This document shows, piece by piece, positions 686-6,800 of a DNA stretch of 6,800 nucleotides. A model generated the notes under the pieces. The model was given only the letters and a program-made list of their open reading frames with translations. It had not been told where the DNA came from and searched no databases. Every line of letters starts with the position of its first letter. Position 1 is the stretch's first letter. Source of the DNA: Chloroflexota bacterium (GTDB lineage: Bacteria > Chloroflexota > Anaerolineae > Anaerolineales > UBA4823); contig JAUWLJ010000110.1 of NCBI GenBank assembly GCA_030613705.1, forward strand, positions 1 through 6,800. The letters run 5' to 3'. Position numbers and translations under genes: made by a program.

Positions 686-712
686 AGTTAATAGGAAATC
701 ATAATCCTGATC
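686..712. repeat. 27-bp direct repeat, copy 2
   Basis: Second copy of the repeat at 606-632, with 25 of 27 positions identical and an exact 80-bp period. A third, shorter piece, TCCTGATCG, recurs at 741-749 and matches the end of this copy plus the following base (705-713). Conservation of both copies with only two transitions suggests recent duplication or selection on the sequence. Confidence 0.6.
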
Positions 713-798
713 GCTATCCTAAAAAATTGCAATCGATTAGTCCTGATCGTTCCAGTCGGTTCAAGCGATCTGAAAAAACATATTTAATTATGATGAAA

Positions 799-843: not shown

Positions 844-872
844 TTGACAAGCAGAGGGTTCTTTGCTAAACT
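844..872 (+). promoter_or_regulatory. Sigma70-type promoter of the purine operon
   Basis: A perfect -35 box TTGACA (844-849), a 17-bp spacer, and a -10 box TAAACT (867-872; 4 of 6 to consensus) preceded by TGC, an extended -10 feature. Transcription would start near 879, about 50 bases ahead of the first operon gene. It is flanked on the left and overlapped at the start site by the two TTGTCNGACAA palindromes. This is the only strong promoter I see for the five plus-strand genes. Confidence 0.6.
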
Positions 873-930: not shown

Positions 931-2316
931 ATGTCTACCCTACTAGTTAAAAACACCACCATCCTCGTGACTATGGACGACCAGCGTCGGGAGATCAGCG
1001 ACGGTGGTCTTTTTATACGTGGTGGCAAAATTGAGCAAGTGGGAACAACCAGCGAGCTGCCCAGTGAAGCGGATGAAGTCTTAGACCTGCGGGATCATAT
1101 CCTGCTGCCCGGGCTGATCAACACCCATCACCATTTCTATCAAACGTTGACGCGAGTTGTCCCGGCTGCCCAGGATGCGAATCTGTTCAATTGGTTGAAG
1201 ACTCTCTACCCGATTTGGGAGAGAATTACACCCGAGGGGGTGCGCATCTCAACCCAAACTGCACTGGCAGAATTAGCTCTTTCTGGCTGCACAACAGCCT
1301 CCGACCATCTTTATATCTTTCCCAATGGCTCAAGTCTGGATGATGAGATCATAGCTGGCAGAGAAACTGGCCTGCGTTTGCATGCCTCACGAGGATCGAT
1401 GAGTCTCGGAGAGAGCAAGGGAGGTTTACCTCCCGACAGCATTGTAGAAAATGAAACAGACATTCTTAATGATTCACAACGCTTGATTGAGGAATACCAC
1501 GATCCGAATTGGGGCGCGATGACCCAAATTGTGCTGGCCCCTTGCTCCCCATTCAGTGTCACCGCTGAACTCATGCGGGAAAGCGCCTCCTTGGCACGCG
1601 AATATGGTGTTTGTCTGCACACGCATTTAGCGGAGACCCAGGATGAAGAGGCGTTTTGTCTTGAACAGTTCGGTTATCGCCCAGTTGAATACATGGAAGT
1701 GCTCAATTGGACCGGGAGCGATGTCTGGTTCGCCCATTCAGTGCATGTAAATCACTCAGAGATCGAATTGTACGGCATGGCAGGATGTGGAGTGGCTCAC
1801 TGTCCATCAGCGAATATGCGGCTGGCATCGGGAATTGCACCAGTTTTGGACATGCTGGCGAGCGGTGTCCGGGTTGGTCTTGGAGTTGATGGTTCGGCGA
1901 GCAATGATAGCTCCCATTTGCTGGCTGAAGTCCGGCAAGCGATGCTCATCGCTCGATTGGGATCGGCTTTAAGCGGAGCATCATTGTCCAGCGAAGGTGC
2001 TCCTGCTCTCATGACTGCCAGGCAGGCACTCGAAATTGCAACCCGCGGCGGAGCAGCGGTTCTCAGGCGGGAGGATATCGGCTGCTTAGAGCCCGGAATG
2101 TGCGCGGATTTCTTCGCCATTAACCTGAATCGTTTGGATTATGCCGGTGCTCTTCATGATCCAGTTGCCGCAGTTTTGTTTTGTGCGCCACTGCAAGTGG
2201 ATTACACAGTTGTGGGCGGCAAGTTTGTCGTCAAAGAAGGGCAAATAGTCACTCTCGACCTGCCTAAATTGATTGAAGACCACAATCGAGCTGCGCGTAA
2301 ATTGTTGTTAAATTAA
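931..2316 (+). CDS. 8-oxoguanine deaminase (amidohydrolase superfamily)
   Basis: A 461-residue cytosolic metal-dependent amidohydrolase of the TRZ/ATZ (COG0402) group, predicted to deaminate 8-oxoguanine to urate with release of ammonia. Visible landmarks are the metal motif INTHHHFYQTLTR (His66/His68), the signature around residues 75-131 (PAAQDANLFNWL, SGCTTASDHLYIFPNG), HTHLAE (His232 as metal ligand, Glu235 catalytic), FAHSVH (His269) and GLGVDGSASND (Asp320). The order and wording closely follow proteins annotated as 8-oxoguanine deaminase, formerly called hydroxydechloroatrazine ethylaminohydrolase, and the length is usual for the family. A ribosome-binding site AGGAAGG (919-925) lies 5 bases before the ATG. 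It is the first gene of the operon, 41 bp ahead of adenine deaminase. A neighbouring specificity, such as another oxidised purine or a triazine, cannot be excluded from sequence alone. Confidence 0.88.
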   Translation: MSTLLVKNTTILVTMDDQRREISDGGLFIRGGKIEQVGTTSELPSEADEVLDLRDHILLPGLINTHHHFYQTLTRVVPAAQDANLFNWLKTLYPIWERITPEGVRISTQTALAELALSGCTTASDHLYIFPNGSSLDDEIIAGRETGLRLHASRGSMSLGESKGGLPPDSIVENETDILNDSQRLIEEYHDPNWGAMTQIVLAPCSPFSVTAELMRESASLAREYGVCLHTHLAETQDEEAFCLEQFGYRPVEYMEVLNWTGSDVWFAHSVHVNHSEIELYGMAGCGVAHCPSANMRLASGIAPVLDMLASGVRVGLGVDGSASNDSSHLLAEVRQAMLIARLGSALSGASLSSEGAPALMTARQALEIATRGGAAVLRREDIGCLEPGMCADFFAINLNRLDYAGALHDPVAAVLFCAPLQVDYTVVGGKFVVKEGQIVTLDLPKLIEDHNRAARKLLLN

Positions 2317-2357
2317 TCTTCCGCGATGCTTAATGTCTGAAACGTAAAAGGGTTAAC

Positions 2358-4163
2358 ATGTCAGCAGAATCGATCGCCCGCCTAACTCGTACCCTTGTGG
2401 ATGTCTCCATGGGGCGCACACCAGCCGACATGGTCATTCGAAATGGTCGCTGGGTCTGTGTTCAATCTGGTGAGATGATCCCTGCAACGGACATTGCTGT
2501 CAAATCCGAGCGCATCGCTTACGTGGGAGCGGATGCCAGTCACACCATTGGAGATGAAACCAAGGTCATTGATGCTGCAGGGAAATACCTGGTGCCAGGG
2601 CTCTTGGATGCCCATATGCATGTTGAATCGGGTATGGTGACGGTGACTGAATTTGTGCGGGCGGTGATCCCAAACGGCACGACGGGATTATTCATCGATC
2701 CTCATGAGATCGCCAATGTATTCGGCTTGCGTGGGGTGCGGCTGATGGTTGATGAAGCTGCCGGACAGCCGATTCATGTTTGGGTGCAGATGCCCTGTTG
2801 TGTTCCCTCAGCACCTGGATTAGAAACATCCGGAGCCAGCATCGGTCCAGAGGATGTGGCTGAAGCCATGTCATGGGATGGCATCATTGGCCTGGGGGAG
2901 ATGATGAATTTCCCCGGGGTATTCATGAGCGATGAGAAAATGCATGCAGAGATGGCAGAAACCCGAGAGGCGGGTAAAGTCATAGGCGGGCATTATGCTT
3001 CGCCAGATTTGGGTATCCCCTTCCATGCTTATGCTGCTGGTGGTCCAGAAGATGATCACGAAGGTACCGTCATGGAGGACGCGATGGCGCGTGTTCGCCA
3101 GGGGATGAAGGCCATCCTGCGTGACGGTTCCGCCTGGAAGGATGTTGATAACCAGGCGCGAGCGATCACGGAAATGGGACTGGATCCACGGCATTTCCTC
3201 TTGTGCACCGATGACTCTCACGCTGAAACCCTGGTCGCTGAAGGCCATATGAACAGGGTTGTGAGACGGGCTATCTTCCAGGGTTTATCTCCGATGGTCG
3301 CCATCCAAATGGCAACCATCAATACCGCAGAGCATTTTGGCGTCTCTCGCGAAGTGGGCATGATCGCTCCGGGGAGATATGCAGATGTCTTGCTCATTGA
3401 CAATTTACCTGAGATGCAGATCAACAAGGTAATCGCTCGTGGTCAGTTAGCCGCTGAGAATGGTCAGGTCTTAATCGATATCTCACCCTATGATTATACT
3501 GAATGGGTGAAGTCGTCAATCCATTTGGGTCGAGTCCCGAGCGTAGAAGATTTTCGGTTGTTATTGCCTGCGTCTGCAGAACCTCACCCAGAGAAAATTA
3601 CCGCAAATGTGATCGGGGTGATTGAAAACCAGGCGAAAACCCGCCACCTGAAAGTCGAACTTCCCCTGGTTGCAGGTGAAATACGCGTAGACCTTTCTCA
3701 AGATATCGCTAAGATCGCCTTGGTTGAACGCCATAAGGGAACGGGAGATATCCAGGTTGGGCTGGTGAAAGGGTTTGGTTTCAACGTGCCGTGCGCAGTA
3801 GGAACCACTGTGGCTCATGACAGCCATCATATGATCGTTGTCGGAACAGATGATAATAATATGGTAAAAGCTACCGAAATTTTGGCTAACATGGGGGGCG
3901 GACAAGTGGTGTTGAGGGAGGGAGAGGTAATCGGGCAGGTAGCTTTACCGATTGCGGGTTTGATGTCGAACGAACGCGCAGAAGTCGTCGCCCAGCAAGC
4001 TTCAACCGTGCTTGCTGGATTTAGAGCTTGTGGATGTGTACTCAATAATCCAAATATGCAGCTCAGTTTGTTGGCTCTAGTCGTGATCCCGGAATTAAGG
4101 ATCTCGGACCTGGGCCTGGTAGATGTGACCAGTTTTGAATTTATTCCGGTGATCGAAGGTTGA
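2358..4163 (+). CDS. ade: Adenine deaminase
   Basis: A 601-residue adenine aminohydrolase, slightly longer than the usual 570-590, converting adenine to hypoxanthine and ammonia in the cytosol. The N-terminal amidohydrolase domain (about 22-375) has DAHMHVES (His86, His88), DPHEIANV (114-121), GLGEMMN (Glu181), GGHY (His212), DDHE (His234) and LCTDDSH (282-288, metal-binding Asp), all characteristic of Ade. The C-terminal Ade domain (about 410-600) contains VGTTVAHDSHHM (481-492) and the AGLMS segment near 533. The His212 loop reads GGHYASPDLG rather than the more common GHAPGLSG form, marking a divergent subgroup in which substrate range may differ. The start follows a modest AAGGG site (2348-2352) and gives an N-terminus like that of other Ade proteins. 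It is 25 bp upstream of the GntR gene. Confidence 0.9.
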   Translation: MSAESIARLTRTLVDVSMGRTPADMVIRNGRWVCVQSGEMIPATDIAVKSERIAYVGADASHTIGDETKVIDAAGKYLVPGLLDAHMHVESGMVTVTEFVRAVIPNGTTGLFIDPHEIANVFGLRGVRLMVDEAAGQPIHVWVQMPCCVPSAPGLETSGASIGPEDVAEAMSWDGIIGLGEMMNFPGVFMSDEKMHAEMAETREAGKVIGGHYASPDLGIPFHAYAAGGPEDDHEGTVMEDAMARVRQGMKAILRDGSAWKDVDNQARAITEMGLDPRHFLLCTDDSHAETLVAEGHMNRVVRRAIFQGLSPMVAIQMATINTAEHFGVSREVGMIAPGRYADVLLIDNLPEMQINKVIARGQLAAENGQVLIDISPYDYTEWVKSSIHLGRVPSVEDFRLLLPASAEPHPEKITANVIGVIENQAKTRHLKVELPLVAGEIRVDLSQDIAKIALVERHKGTGDIQVGLVKGFGFNVPCAVGTTVAHDSHHMIVVGTDDNNMVKATEILANMGGGQVVLREGEVIGQVALPIAGLMSNERAEVVAQQASTVLAGFRACGCVLNNPNMQLSLLALVVIPELRISDLGLVDVTSFEFIPVIEG

Positions 4164-4188
4164 TATTTCAGACTCAATAAGGATATTC

Positions 4189-4926
4189 ATGACAAAATCA
4201 ATACCCAATCACATTACTTTATCGCAAAGGCTGCATGAAGATCTGGCAGAGATCATCTCTACAACTAAAACTGGAGATCGTTTGCTAACAGAACCAGATC
4301 TTGCCAAGCAGCTTGGTGTTTCCCGGGCAACATTACGGGAAGCGATGAGAACGTTCGAGACTCAAGGGTTTCTCCTGCGTAAGCAAGGGGTTGGCACATT
4401 CGTAGTACGACCAACCCAGGTACTGGAAAGCGGATTGGAAGTGCTTGAATCGATAGAGACTCTGGCCAAGCGGACAGGTCTTCCGGTATCATCTGGGAAA
4501 GTAGATCTCGAACAGCGTCAGGCGACGAGTGAGGAATGCGATGCGCTGGGCATGGAACTTGGGTGCACCGTTATCTCTGTATCCAGGGTGATTATGGCAG
4601 AAGGTCGTCCGGCTGCATACCTGGTGGATATACTCCCCGAGGATGTCCTTTCTCCAGATGAGTTGCAACAGGGTTTCAGCGGATCAGTCCTGGATCTGCT
4701 GCTCGAGAGAGGCAACCCACAGCTGGTGAACTCACACTGTGAGATCGCAGCAGTGGCTGCTGATTCGACCATCTCCCGGGCGCTTCATATCCAGCGTGGG
4801 GACGCCATCCTAAAATTCAGTTCACGGCTTTTCGCTCTCGATGGCAGAGTTGTAGATTGTTCTTACAGCTACTTTCTACCCGGTTATTTCAGGTTTCACG
4901 TGGTCAGAGAATTGGCTGCCAATTAG
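4189..4926 (+). CDS. GntR-family transcriptional regulator, HutC/UTRA type
   Basis: A 245-residue regulator. The N-terminal winged helix-turn-helix (about 10-76) has the core TEPDLAKQLGVSRATLREAM and the wing KQGVGTFV. The C-terminal part (about 95-240) has the UTRA effector domain pattern: a VSRV strand at 131-134, RPAAYLVDILP (140-150), and the closing DCSYSYFLPGYFRF segment (223-236). This is the HutC-type layout rather than the all-helical FCD type. Such proteins are usually dimeric repressors released by a small pathway molecule. It is embedded in the operon 25 bp after adenine deaminase, so it probably controls its own transcription through the paired TTGTCNGACAA palindromes at 833-888. 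The effector is unknown; a purine or a ureido intermediate is a reasonable guess. The ribosome-binding site is AAGGA (4179-4183). Confidence 0.9.
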   Translation: MTKSIPNHITLSQRLHEDLAEIISTTKTGDRLLTEPDLAKQLGVSRATLREAMRTFETQGFLLRKQGVGTFVVRPTQVLESGLEVLESIETLAKRTGLPVSSGKVDLEQRQATSEECDALGMELGCTVISVSRVIMAEGRPAAYLVDILPEDVLSPDELQQGFSGSVLDLLLERGNPQLVNSHCEIAAVAADSTISRALHIQRGDAILKFSSRLFALDGRVVDCSYSYFLPGYFRFHVVRELAAN

Positions 4927-5018
4927 GTGGTTATAACCTATTCCATCGTATGGAATCCAGGCTGTATGAATTCCATCGATTGATCAATTAACATACTTAG
5001 TAATAAGGAGATTTTCCA
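4927..5018. promoter_or_regulatory. 92-bp gap with dyads before the carbamoyltransferases
   Basis: This is the largest gap inside the operon. It contains a perfect 10-bp palindrome GGTTATAACC (4929-4938), an inverted repeat ATTCCAT-CGT-ATGGAAT (4940-4956), and a second ATTCCATCG (4970-4978) that repeats 4940-4948 exactly 30 bp downstream. The hairpin has only 7 bp and no T-run, so it is not a convincing terminator. I see a possible TATAAC box at 4932-4937 but no good -35 partner, so an internal promoter is possible but unproved. AAGGAG (5005-5010) is the ribosome-binding site of the next gene. Confidence 0.45.
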
Positions 5019-5969
5019 ATGCGAAGTTTTAACGGACGAGATATTCTTTCCCTCAAGGAGTTTGGCAGAGAGGAATATTTCCGAATTTTTGAGGTGAGTG
5101 ATCGTTTAGCACCCTTTGCTCGCGATCGCCAAAACACAGATCTATTAGCTCACAAGACCCTGGTTACTGCATTCTACCAACCAAGCACTCGCACCAGGTT
5201 AGCCCATGAAGCTGCCATGCATAGATTGGGTGGTCATGTGCTTGGCTTCTCAGACGCAAAAATGACCAGGGCAGGAGATTTTTACCAGGAGTCGATCAAG
5301 GATACTGTCCGGATGCTGGAATTTTATGGTGATGCGCTTGTTATGCGCCATTTTCAACAAGGCGCACCTCACGAAGCTGCTAGATGGGCCAGCATTCCGG
5401 TGATCAACGCGGGCGATGGTTGGGGAGAACATCCGACGCAGGTACTTACCGATCTTTACACTATCCTTAAAGAGAAAGGTCGCCTGGATGGCTTGAAATT
5501 CCTATTGATCGGTGATATGCGCATGCGCACCATGCATAGCATCTCCTATGCGATGACGCAATTTGACATCGATGCATTCTATGTTTCTCCCCCTGAAATG
5601 AGTCTGACGGATGAATTCAAGGGTGAAATCACTGCGCTCAACTTGAATTTCCGCGAGATCGAGCACGTTGAAGAGGCGATTGGGGAAGTCGATGTGATTT
5701 ACATGGAACCGGTGGTGCAACCAGATTACACCAAATCACGCGATGAGCGGTCAGGCGATGTCGGTATGACCCCGGCAAATTATAAGGTGACCAAGGATTT
5801 ACTGCGTAAAGCAAAACAGGATGCGATCATTTTACATTCCCTGCCGCGCATGGACGAACTTCCGATGGATGTGGATGATACCCGTCACGCTCGATATTGG
5901 ATCGAAGCATATAACGGGGTGGTCGTACGTATGGCTTTGCTGGCGTTAATCCTTGGGGCAATGGAATAG
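5019..5969 (+). CDS. Aspartate carbamoyltransferase-like protein, substrate uncertain
   Basis: A 316-residue protein of the aspartate/ornithine carbamoyltransferase family, near the usual length of an ATCase catalytic chain. The carbamoyl-phosphate residues are intact: STRTR (56-60), Arg110 in VMRH, His138 and Gln141 in EHPTQ, and SLPRMDE (274-280). Its closest recognisable relatives are PyrB chains, with the C-terminus DVDDTRHARYW...RMALLAL matching the PyrB pattern. Two ATCase features are absent. The 80s loop lacks the Lys pair of SLGKKGE (E. coli Lys83/84), reading TRAGDFYQE (83-91). The 240s-loop TRVQ (E. coli 228-231, holding the aspartate side chain) reads EPVV (230-233). It is therefore probably not biosynthetic PyrB; no regulatory PyrI chain is nearby. 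A catabolic role on a ureido compound is inferred from the purine genes around it. It is 11 bp before a second carbamoyltransferase gene. Confidence 0.8.
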   Translation: MRSFNGRDILSLKEFGREEYFRIFEVSDRLAPFARDRQNTDLLAHKTLVTAFYQPSTRTRLAHEAAMHRLGGHVLGFSDAKMTRAGDFYQESIKDTVRMLEFYGDALVMRHFQQGAPHEAARWASIPVINAGDGWGEHPTQVLTDLYTILKEKGRLDGLKFLLIGDMRMRTMHSISYAMTQFDIDAFYVSPPEMSLTDEFKGEITALNLNFREIEHVEEAIGEVDVIYMEPVVQPDYTKSRDERSGDVGMTPANYKVTKDLLRKAKQDAIILHSLPRMDELPMDVDDTRHARYWIEAYNGVVVRMALLALILGAME

Positions 5970-5980
5970 AGGAGAATAAG

Positions 5981-6800
5981 ATGCAGACAGATTTACGAGG
6001 CCGAGATTTGATCGGTGATCTGGATTTCAGCAAAGAAGAAGTCGAAACTGTTTTAGAGGTAGCTTTCGACCTTAAACGCAAACGCGCCCTGGGTGAATCA
6101 CACGCTTATCTGCGCGATAAGGTCCTGGCTATGCTGTTCTTTTTCTCAAGCACTCGCACTAGAGGTTCGTTCGAAGCCGGGATGGCTCAGCTGGGCGGTC
6201 ATGCCGCCTTCATCGAATCAAAGACCACCCAGATTTCTCATGGAGATACCGAGAAGGAAATTGGCGAAATCTTCGGGCGTTATTTTGATGGGATTGCCAT
6301 CCGCCATGTTGATTGGGGTATCGGGAACAAGTACCTGAACCTGGTTGCCGAAGCTTCCCGAGAGCCTGTGTTGAACATGCAATGTGAGATTTACCATCCA
6401 TTTCAAATCCTTGCCGATTTGATGACTATTGTGGAAAAGAAAGGCCGGGATCTGCGGCGGAAGAAGATGGTCGTCTCTTGGGCCTATGCCGCCTCTTACC
6501 AGAAGCCGATGTCTGTCCCCCAGAGCCTGGTCCTGCAAATACCGCGTTTTGGTTTAGATGTAGTCCTGGCACATCCACCCGAGTTTGAGCTCATGCCGGA
6601 AATCATGGATCAGGCGCGTGAGCAAGCCCGCAAGTTCGGAGGCGGGTTTGAGGTGGTCGATGATATGGAATTAGCTTTCAAAGATGCGGATATCGTCTAC
6701 GCCAAATCTTGGGGGGCGATGGTCCATTCAGCGGATGCAGATGAAGGCGCCCGGCTCATCCAAAAATATAAGCACAGGATTACCGATGCGCGCAAGATGG
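5981..6800 (+). CDS. ygeW: YgeW-like carbamoyltransferase, C-terminus cut by window end
   Basis: The reading frame is open from ATG 5981 to the right edge (273 complete codons); roughly the last fifth to third is missing given usual YgeW/SOTCase lengths of about 330-400. The carbamoyl-phosphate motif SSTRTR (56-61), Arg108 in IAIRH and HPFQ (139-142) are present; HPFQ replaces the commoner HPTQ. The loop SWAYAASYQKPMSVPQ (166-181), then RFGLDVVLAHP (189-199) and AFKDADIVYAKSW (232-244), agree closely from memory with E. coli YgeW (MTWAYSPSYGKPLSVPQ, RFGMDVTLAHP, AFKDADIVYPKSW) and set it apart from ArgF and PyrB. In bacteria with the yge cluster the enzyme is placed in anaerobic purine/urate breakdown, releasing carbamoyl phosphate from a ureido intermediate. 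A strong AGAGGAG site (5968-5974) overlaps the stop of the preceding gene, indicating translational coupling. The symbol marks similarity, not proven function. Confidence 0.82.
   Translation, partial: MQTDLRGRDLIGDLDFSKEEVETVLEVAFDLKRKRALGESHAYLRDKVLAMLFFFSSTRTRGSFEAGMAQLGGHAAFIESKTTQISHGDTEKEIGEIFGRYFDGIAIRHVDWGIGNKYLNLVAEASREPVLNMQCEIYHPFQILADLMTIVEKKGRDLRRKKMVVSWAYAASYQKPMSVPQSLVLQIPRFGLDVVLAHPPEFELMPEIMDQAREQARKFGGGFEVVDDMELAFKDADIVYAKSWGAMVHSADADEGARLIQKYKHRITDARKM

Follow-up and report, generated by a model that had tools for sequence, protein, structure and literature searches.

The stretch of DNA analysed here (the window) is one complete 6800-bp contig (G000:C342) from the genome of an uncultured Chloroflexota bacterium, which is 58% complete and spread over 351 contigs. 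It carries five co-directional genes separated by gaps of 41, 25, 92 and 11 bp, a layout given in a preliminary description of the sequence and reproduced when we recomputed the open reading frames (ORFs) and gaps (Table 1). Genes 1 and 2 pass the curated cut-offs for an 8-oxoguanine deaminase and an adenine deaminase, as first proposed; the solved structure closest to gene 1 is 3hpa, followed by 7ww2, which is named 8-oxoguanine deaminase, and gene 2 carries the Adenine_deam_C domain. Gene 3 matches both Pfam domains of a GntR/UTRA regulator, and an NCBIfam scan gave no equivalog above cut-off for it. Genes 4 and 5 were each placed in a carbamoyltransferase family, again as described, and we call these families ATC2 (gene 4) and YGW (gene 5). 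Entry through 8-oxoguanine, which the preliminary description had singled out as an unfamiliar arrangement, proved to be ordinary in this lineage, since an 8-oxoguanine deaminase recurs in 43 of the 111 distinct ATC2 loci with at least 6 kb of downstream sequence. The truly unusual part of the operon is ATC2, and the finding that we put forward is its exchange with the hydrolase YgeY in what we predict to be a new form of the reductive urate pathway that yields more energy.

Table 1. Features of the 6800-bp window.
Feature	Position	Strand	Evidence and predicted role
Gene 1, 8-oxoguanine deaminase family	931..2316	+	NF006055, 681 bits (cut-off 532); predicted 8-oxoguanine to urate
Gene 2, adenine deaminase Ade	2358..4163	+	TIGR01178, 502.7 bits (cut-off 472.5); predicted adenine to hypoxanthine
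Gene 3, GntR/UTRA regulator	4189..4926	+	PF00392 and PF07702; predicted binder of both palindromes
Gene 4, ATCase-like carbamoyltransferase ATC2 (pseudo-ATCase)	5019..5969	+	predicted ureido-group phosphorolysis
Gene 5, second carbamoyltransferase YGW	5981..6799	+	3' end open at contig end
Operator-like palindrome TTGTCAGACAA	833..843	+	exact match, 5' of the -35 hexamer
Promoter-like TTGACA-17-TAAACT	844..872	+	consensus scan, 10/12 positions; predicted
Operator-like palindrome TTGTCTGACAA	878..888	+	3' of the -10 hexamer
ORF of at least 147 codons	2-442	-	signal-peptide-like start judged by eye; Pfam gave no match
Two 27-bp direct repeats	606-632 and 686-712		93% identical, 80 bp apart; intergenic, upstream of the operon
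Third, partial copy of the 27-bp repeat	738-749		intergenic, upstream of the operon

Locus counts given throughout draw on 80 of the 95 ATC2-positive genomes of the class and on the best 80 of 514 database loci, which after deduplication left 150 distinct ATC2-positive loci. Neighbouring genes were counted at identities of at least 60% (8-oxoguanine deaminase), 40% (SsnA and the threonine-synthase-like protein) and 30% (xanthine dehydrogenase-like, or XDH-like, proteins).

Gene 4 passes the aspartate carbamoyltransferase (ATCase) model TIGR00670 with 256 bits against a cut-off of 237 and is annotated as such, yet it is without the aspartate-binding RxQxER of the 240s loop. This element was found in none of 16 aligned ATC2 rows as against 10 of 10 PyrB rows from the class, and ATC2 lacks the residues R229 and Q231, which hold the aspartate β-carboxylate. 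The carbamoyl-phosphate motifs are kept and are invariant across 26 aligned ATC2 proteins; ATC2 displays STRT, HPTQ and HSLP, and EPVVQPDY in the 240s loop. ATC2 also forms a clade of its own, with the PyrB and ArgF proteins of the class in separate clades, and for this and the lost RxQxER we rejected gene 4 as a housekeeping PyrB. Its attributes (a carbamoyltransferase signature, a variant of HxLP and no RxQ) are those by which a pseudo-ATCase is recognised. Within the class, 95 of 396 genomes encode ATC2, and bins labelled Neomarinimicrobiota, Armatimonadota and Actinobacteria, among others, appear in the best 80 of 514 database loci. ATC2 was also seen in a Thermoflexus bin (L178); a cultured relative, Thermoflexus hugenholtzii, takes up adenine and adenosine (PMC8129789).

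Gene 5 had been described as YgeW-like, and it is indeed a carbamoyltransferase for which YgeW is the top model, but the truncated piece scores 177 bits, well under the cut-off of 453. Two full-length relatives reach 188-207 and 182-195 bits on the YgeW models NF005538 and TIGR03316 against cut-offs of 453 and 500, and we rejected membership of the YgeW equivalog on account of these scores. The same two relatives also fall below the cut-offs for ornithine and N-acetylornithine carbamoyltransferase. What the YGW family shares with YgeW are the motifs STRT, HPFQ (or HPHQ) and H-x-LP, and a proline-rich insert (SWAYA-SYQKPMSVPQS in the relatives) that aligns with the AOTCase loop of the knotted group; its members are about 324-329 residues long compared with 396 positions in the YgeW model. 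A predicted structure of gene 5 (pLDDT 54, from only 19 close sequences) is too poor to show a knot.

These family assignments bear on one alternative, namely that genes 4 and 5 form an arginine- or pyrimidine-type catabolic module acting on citrulline, carbamoyl-aspartate or carbamoyl-β-alanine, and that the deaminases merely share its operon. The ATCase cut-off cleared by gene 4 would fit such a module, as would the finding that ornithine carbamoyltransferase models score best for the full-length gene-5 relatives. We nevertheless regard it as highly improbable: gene 4 is without the RxQxER found in every class PyrB row, PyrB and ArgF fall in separate clades, the two full-length gene-5 relatives reach no equivalog cut-off, and the neighbouring genes include SsnA, YgeY, XDH-like and pyridoxal phosphate (PLP) enzyme genes.

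The exchange of ATC2 with YgeY is seen directly in the gene orders. In relatives that lack ATC2, YgeY occupies the ATC2 slot of an otherwise equal operon (L227-L230, L242 and L244-L246); for instance, L227 reads 8-oxoguanine deaminase, adenine deaminase, GntR, YgeY, YGW, carbamate kinase, a protein of unknown function, BMP, ABC, two permeases and the threonine-synthase-like protein. Three layouts occur, GntR-YgeY-YGW, GntR-YgeY-ATC2-YGW and GntR-ATC2-YGW, the last being that of the window, and one genus (g8) holds both kinds, with YgeY in L234 and ATC2 in L076 and L081. The 20 ATC2-free loci were picked by gene-5/YgeY coordinates from 26 genomes with gene 5 (at least 65% identity), so that the presence of YgeY in 20 of 20 partly reflects selection; in those 26 genomes YgeY lies near gene 5 in 23 and on another contig in three (G033, G170 and G340).

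At the level of genomes, we searched for YgeY, YgeX and gene 5 in 50 ATC2-positive genomes (the window's own and 49 of the other 94, chosen among those at least 90% complete) and in 30 ATC2-negative genomes, a hand-picked portion of the remainder. Of the genomes bearing gene 5, 29 of the 48 ATC2-positive and all 28 ATC2-negative ones have a YgeY above the curated cut-off; the 48 exclude the window's own incomplete genome and G123, in which gene 5 was not found, and in two of the 28 (G253 and G015) the gene-5 relative shares no more than 45-50% identity. None of these 76 genomes has gene 5 with neither YgeY nor ATC2, where approximately 7 would be expected. Another M20 group may account for ten of the 29 YgeY hits in ATC2-positive genomes, which reach only 338-396 bits and do not share a contig with ATC2. 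The two ATC2-negative genomes without YgeY (G089 and G298) are also without YGW and the threonine-synthase-like protein. YgeY and YgeX, both of which the preliminary description led us to expect, were not found in the 58% of the window's own genome that is available; in the complete relative G396 a search for YgeY at E ≤ 1e-50 found none, and 3 of the 18 named ATC2 genomes have a YgeY above cut-off. Thermanaerothrix daxensis GNS-1, which carries an ATC2 operon (L164), gave YgeY-family hits that all fall short of the cut-off. YgeX was found in none of the 50 ATC2-positive genomes and in 4 of the 30 ATC2-negative ones. Of 49 genomes searched for the threonine-synthase-like PLP protein, 46 have it at an identity of 51% or more, the exceptions being G089, G298 and the window's own.

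To the right, the last 171 bp of the window overlap the end of another contig of the same genome (C136) at 92% identity. On C136 the gene 5 frame runs to its stop codon and is followed by genes for a carbamate kinase (380 bits on TIGR00746, whose cut-off is 358), for the ATPase and four permeases of an ABC transporter, and for a BMP-type lipoprotein. We did not join the two contigs, since an identity of 92% points to an origin in slightly different strains. The preliminary description had named carbamate kinase among the genes to look for here, and genes of arginine or pyrimidine biosynthesis as evidence to the contrary; the continuation holds the carbamate kinase with a BMP/ABC transporter, and not those biosynthetic genes. 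The complete chromosome CP070764 (L148/G396; ATC2 96% identical) carries the whole gene order in one piece, its threonine-synthase-like gene (1158869-1160095) being on the same strand about 1.6 kb past the fetched stretch (downstream edge 1161718). Across relatives, 132 of the 135 distinct loci that reach at least 1.5 kb downstream have a gene 5 homologue next to ATC2, and among the 111 loci with at least 6 kb downstream, carbamate kinase is present in 103 and the threonine-synthase-like gene in 76.

Some features of the downstream region vary. In L003 (953-5037), and likewise in L148 and L149, the ABC transporter comes with four permease genes arranged as two pairs; many other relatives have one pair. 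Downstream of the carbamate kinase in L069 (12865-14898) lies a protein of about 677 residues with no Pfam or NCBIfam match, whose counterparts occur in L066-L068, L070, L075, L080 and L227-L230 (listed copies 40-58% identical to that of L069). In the YgeY-type cluster of L240 (13191-15119), a 642-residue protein with no Pfam match stands between the threonine-synthase-like gene and a second PLP gene.

The preliminary description placed the operon in anaerobic purine and urate use, and we find this reading supported by the continuation with its carbamate kinase and by SsnA, XDH-like subunits, an F420 reductase and a hydantoinase, all present in the window's own genome. Contig C66 encodes on a single strand an FAD subunit, an XDH-like subunit in which the FeS and molybdenum parts are fused, two proteins that by eye resemble a Nudix protein and a phosphatase, SsnA (512 bits; cut-off 444) and, adjoining SsnA near the contig end, the F420 reductase NpdG (182 bits; cut-off 150). 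The XDH-like fused FeS/Mo and FAD subunits adjoining SsnA (L268) have TIGR03311 as best model with 792 bits, under its cut-off of 830. The putative hydantoinase is encoded on contig C247 (G000:C247; TIGR02033, 526 bits against 393). SsnA was detected in all 18 named ATC2 genomes at E ≤ 1e-80, in 14 of them above cut-off. L071 has on one stretch an 8-oxoguanine deaminase, a hydantoinase, an adenine-deaminase-like protein (36%), ATC2, gene 5, carbamate kinase, two PLP genes, SsnA and an F420 oxidoreductase, and XDH-like and SsnA-like genes stand beside ATC2 and YGW in the bins labelled Neomarinimicrobiota (L188, L189 and L196) as well as in L179, L181, L185 and L205; the SsnA proteins of G406 and G407 (L188 and L189) score 420 and 396 bits, below cut-off. 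That the operon serves purine catabolism we hold to be very probable.

Purine catabolism could also follow an oxidative route, in which urate passes through allantoin to allantoate and ATC2 would act as a ureidoglycine (allantoate) carbamoyltransferase (UGTCase), releasing ureidoglycine and carbamoyl phosphate. A Rubrobacter pseudo-ATCase encoded beside carbamate kinase and allantoinase performs allantoate phosphorolysis in vitro (PMC4016543), and the HSLP of ATC2 agrees with the UGTCase motif H(T/S)LP of a review (PMC4581275); the 240s-loop EPVVQPDY of ATC2 is unlike the UGTCase row GX[SC] (PMC4016543). We think this route quite unlikely, given that SsnA, XDH-like, YgeY, gene 5 and PLP genes are found among the neighbours of ATC2, and that the uricase and allantoinase of the Rubrobacter context are both missing from the annotated ATC2 neighbours, among which no aimed search for them was made. 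Uricase, moreover, requires oxygen.

With respect to regulation, the hexamers behind the earlier claim of a single promoter are present, although by themselves they say little because the site ties with two others for the top score among 11 sites scanned (shuffle mean 7.5); a TG precedes the second hexamer at this site and at none of the other ten. The two perfect 11-bp TTGTCWGACAA palindromes that bracket it go beyond chance, with two TTGTCNGACAA sites in the window and none in 200 shuffles. Of 59 distinct loci, 51 have a TGTCnGACA core in the 250 bp preceding the 8-oxoguanine deaminase gene; for adenine deaminase the count is 3 of 60, and for ATC2 it is 0 of 147. L148 likewise has two palindrome sites upstream of the operon. 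A GntR-controlled operon starting at gene 1 is thus well supported, with the palindromes as the putative binding sites of the regulator.

From the gene content, gene order, operator-like sites, family matches and one-slot exchange, all of which are direct observations, we propose the following pathway. The GntR protein would control the operon from the two palindromes around the promoter. The 8-oxoguanine deaminase would deliver urate and the adenine deaminase hypoxanthine, which would be fed in by the xanthine-dehydrogenase-like enzyme. Urate would be reduced, probably with F420 as reductant, and then opened by the SsnA and hydantoinase encoded elsewhere in the genome to a product with two ureido groups, likely 2,3-diureidopropionate. 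In E. coli, YgeW phosphorolyses one ureido group of this compound and YgeY cleaves the other (PMC12507026; PMC12990295), the order of the two cleavages being disputed (commentary PMC12990295). Here gene 5 would stand in for YgeW, and ATC2 for the hydrolase YgeY; since ATC2 would release its ureido group by phosphorolysis, a second carbamoyl phosphate would reach carbamate kinase, which would likely make two ATP per urate versus one in the known gut-bacterial pathway. The threonine-synthase-like PLP enzyme may replace YgeX in converting diaminopropionate to pyruvate and ammonia. Since carbamoyltransferase equilibria favour carbamoylation (PMC4016543), a carbamate kinase beside the pair is what a phosphorolytic route needs. 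We lean towards this two-phosphorolysis mechanism, in which each carbamoyltransferase would take one ureido group to give two carbamoyl phosphates and two ATP per urate. The chances appear evenly balanced for the broader joint reading, by which ATC2 is a predicted new transcarbamylase displacing YgeY from the operon in a widespread, energy-richer urate fermentation of many Chloroflexota and scattered phyla, with 8-oxoguanine, adenine and other purines entering through the same regulated operon.

Alternatively, ATC2 might be a redundant partner of gene 5, acting on the same ureido group or joining it in a mixed trimer as a subunit that is inactive or regulatory, and the second ureido group would then leave otherwise, e.g. 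as urea when the PLP enzyme splits albizziin. The near-constant adjacency of the two genes and the trimeric nature of transcarbamylases (review PMC4581275) would be in keeping with this, and so would the loci, given below, that hold YgeY and ATC2 together. However, a dead ATC2 is unlikely because its carbamoyl-phosphate motifs are invariant, and YgeY is missing only where ATC2 is present (none of the 76 genomes is without both); on balance we consider a redundant role unlikely.

A number of our results weigh against the proposed displacement of YgeY and the pathway built on it. A Fisher test of ATC2 against YgeY gives p = 5e-5 at the curated cut-off with kinship among the genomes ignored, and the p = 4e-8 obtained at a 420-bit YgeY split (19/48 versus 26/26) belongs to a split chosen after seeing the scores. 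A test on the gene-5 tree, which offers only 6 independent pairs, was not significant: YgeY runs opposite to ATC2 in 2-3 of the 6 (1-3 when weaker YgeY hits are counted) and in the same direction in none. Nor does ATC2 exclude YgeY: of the 100 distinct loci that extend at least 3 kb to either side, 25 have YgeY no more than 6 kb away from ATC2. The sole threonine-synthase-like hit in the window's own genome, 58% complete as it is, is 34% identical and contains stops. SsnA is near-universal in the class (315 of 396 genomes, made up of 84 of the 95 ATC2-positive and 231 of the 301 ATC2-negative ones), making its presence alone weak evidence, and we dropped it as a marker of ATC2 genomes. Of 111 ATC2 loci, only 9 have SsnA on the same fetched stretch, 10 have an XDH-like gene there and 2 a hydantoinase. 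As for the regulator, clusters that start with its gene carry the TGTCnGACA core in just 9 of 44 cases, and the 11-bp operator occurs neither in the window's own SsnA contig nor in any of 20 fetched SsnA loci, leaving one regulon shared with the SsnA loci unsupported; the 9-bp core has a single occurrence in 4 of those 20.

SsnA, a marker of urate breakdown elsewhere, is far commoner in this class than ATC2 and may have a more central role in it. In L249 (4525-11080), SsnA, NpdG, CofE, a nitroreductase-family protein, CofD, CofC and an LLM-class F420 oxidoreductase follow in one run, and SsnA stands with F420-biosynthesis genes in this way in 7 of the 20 fetched SsnA loci (L247, L249, L254, L257, L258, L265 and L266), an association that points to a link between F420 and the SsnA pathway in these Chloroflexota. 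Chloroflexota are among the reported SsnA holders, with a putative F420-dependent reductase in place of YgfK (PMC12507026).

It was not until 2025 that the reductive urate pathway was resolved, and the order of its ureido cleavages is called open in a commentary (PMC12990295). Should our prediction be true, the natural swap of a hydrolase for a phosphorolytic enzyme would offer a direct test of that order, with a doubled ATP yield predicted; a large set of proteins labelled aspartate carbamoyltransferase would be reassigned, and the subgroup-2 pseudo-ATCase described in 2013 would gain a function. It would also suggest a route by which anaerobic Chloroflexota live on purines, and the enzyme pair could help the engineering of urate-degrading bacteria. 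We found no published report of two carbamoyltransferases for urate in the open-access literature searched, most subscription papers lying outside this search.

The reductive urate pathway of E. coli and Clostridium comprises XdhD, YgfK or UacX, SsnA, HyuA, YgeW or UacY, YgeY, YgeX and the carbamate kinase YqeA. Shared with it are the SsnA, hydantoinase and XDH-like subunits of the window's own genome and the carbamoyltransferase and carbamate kinase of the operon. In contrast, the operon has two carbamoyltransferases rather than one, YgeY is absent or optional, a threonine-synthase-like PLP enzyme probably takes the place of YgeX, and purine deaminases and a BMP/ABC importer are part of the operon itself.

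Among single enzymes, the subgroup 2 pseudo-ATCase of Nocardioides sp. JS614 is likewise ATCase-like without RxQ and adjoins a ygeW homologue, xdhABC and hyuA (Barba et al. 2013). That subgroup is known from one organism, whereas ATC2 is found in 95 of 396 genomes of the class and in other phyla, and the ATC2 loop motif fits no row of the table in the same paper unless the alignment is shifted. The Rubrobacter xylanophilus ureidoglycine carbamoyltransferase resembles the predicted ATC2 in being a catabolic member of the ATCase branch, in the phosphorolysis of a purine-derived ureido group and in its adjacent carbamate kinase; it differs in belonging to an oxidative pathway with uricase and allantoinase, in its other neighbours and in its loop motif. 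Lastly, the diaminopropionate transcarbamylase (DPTCase) of antibiotic clusters catalyses the reverse of the predicted chemistry, from diaminopropionate to β-ureidoalanine (PMC4581275), and unlike ATC2 it is a biosynthetic enzyme of the ornithine branch with an HDLP motif.

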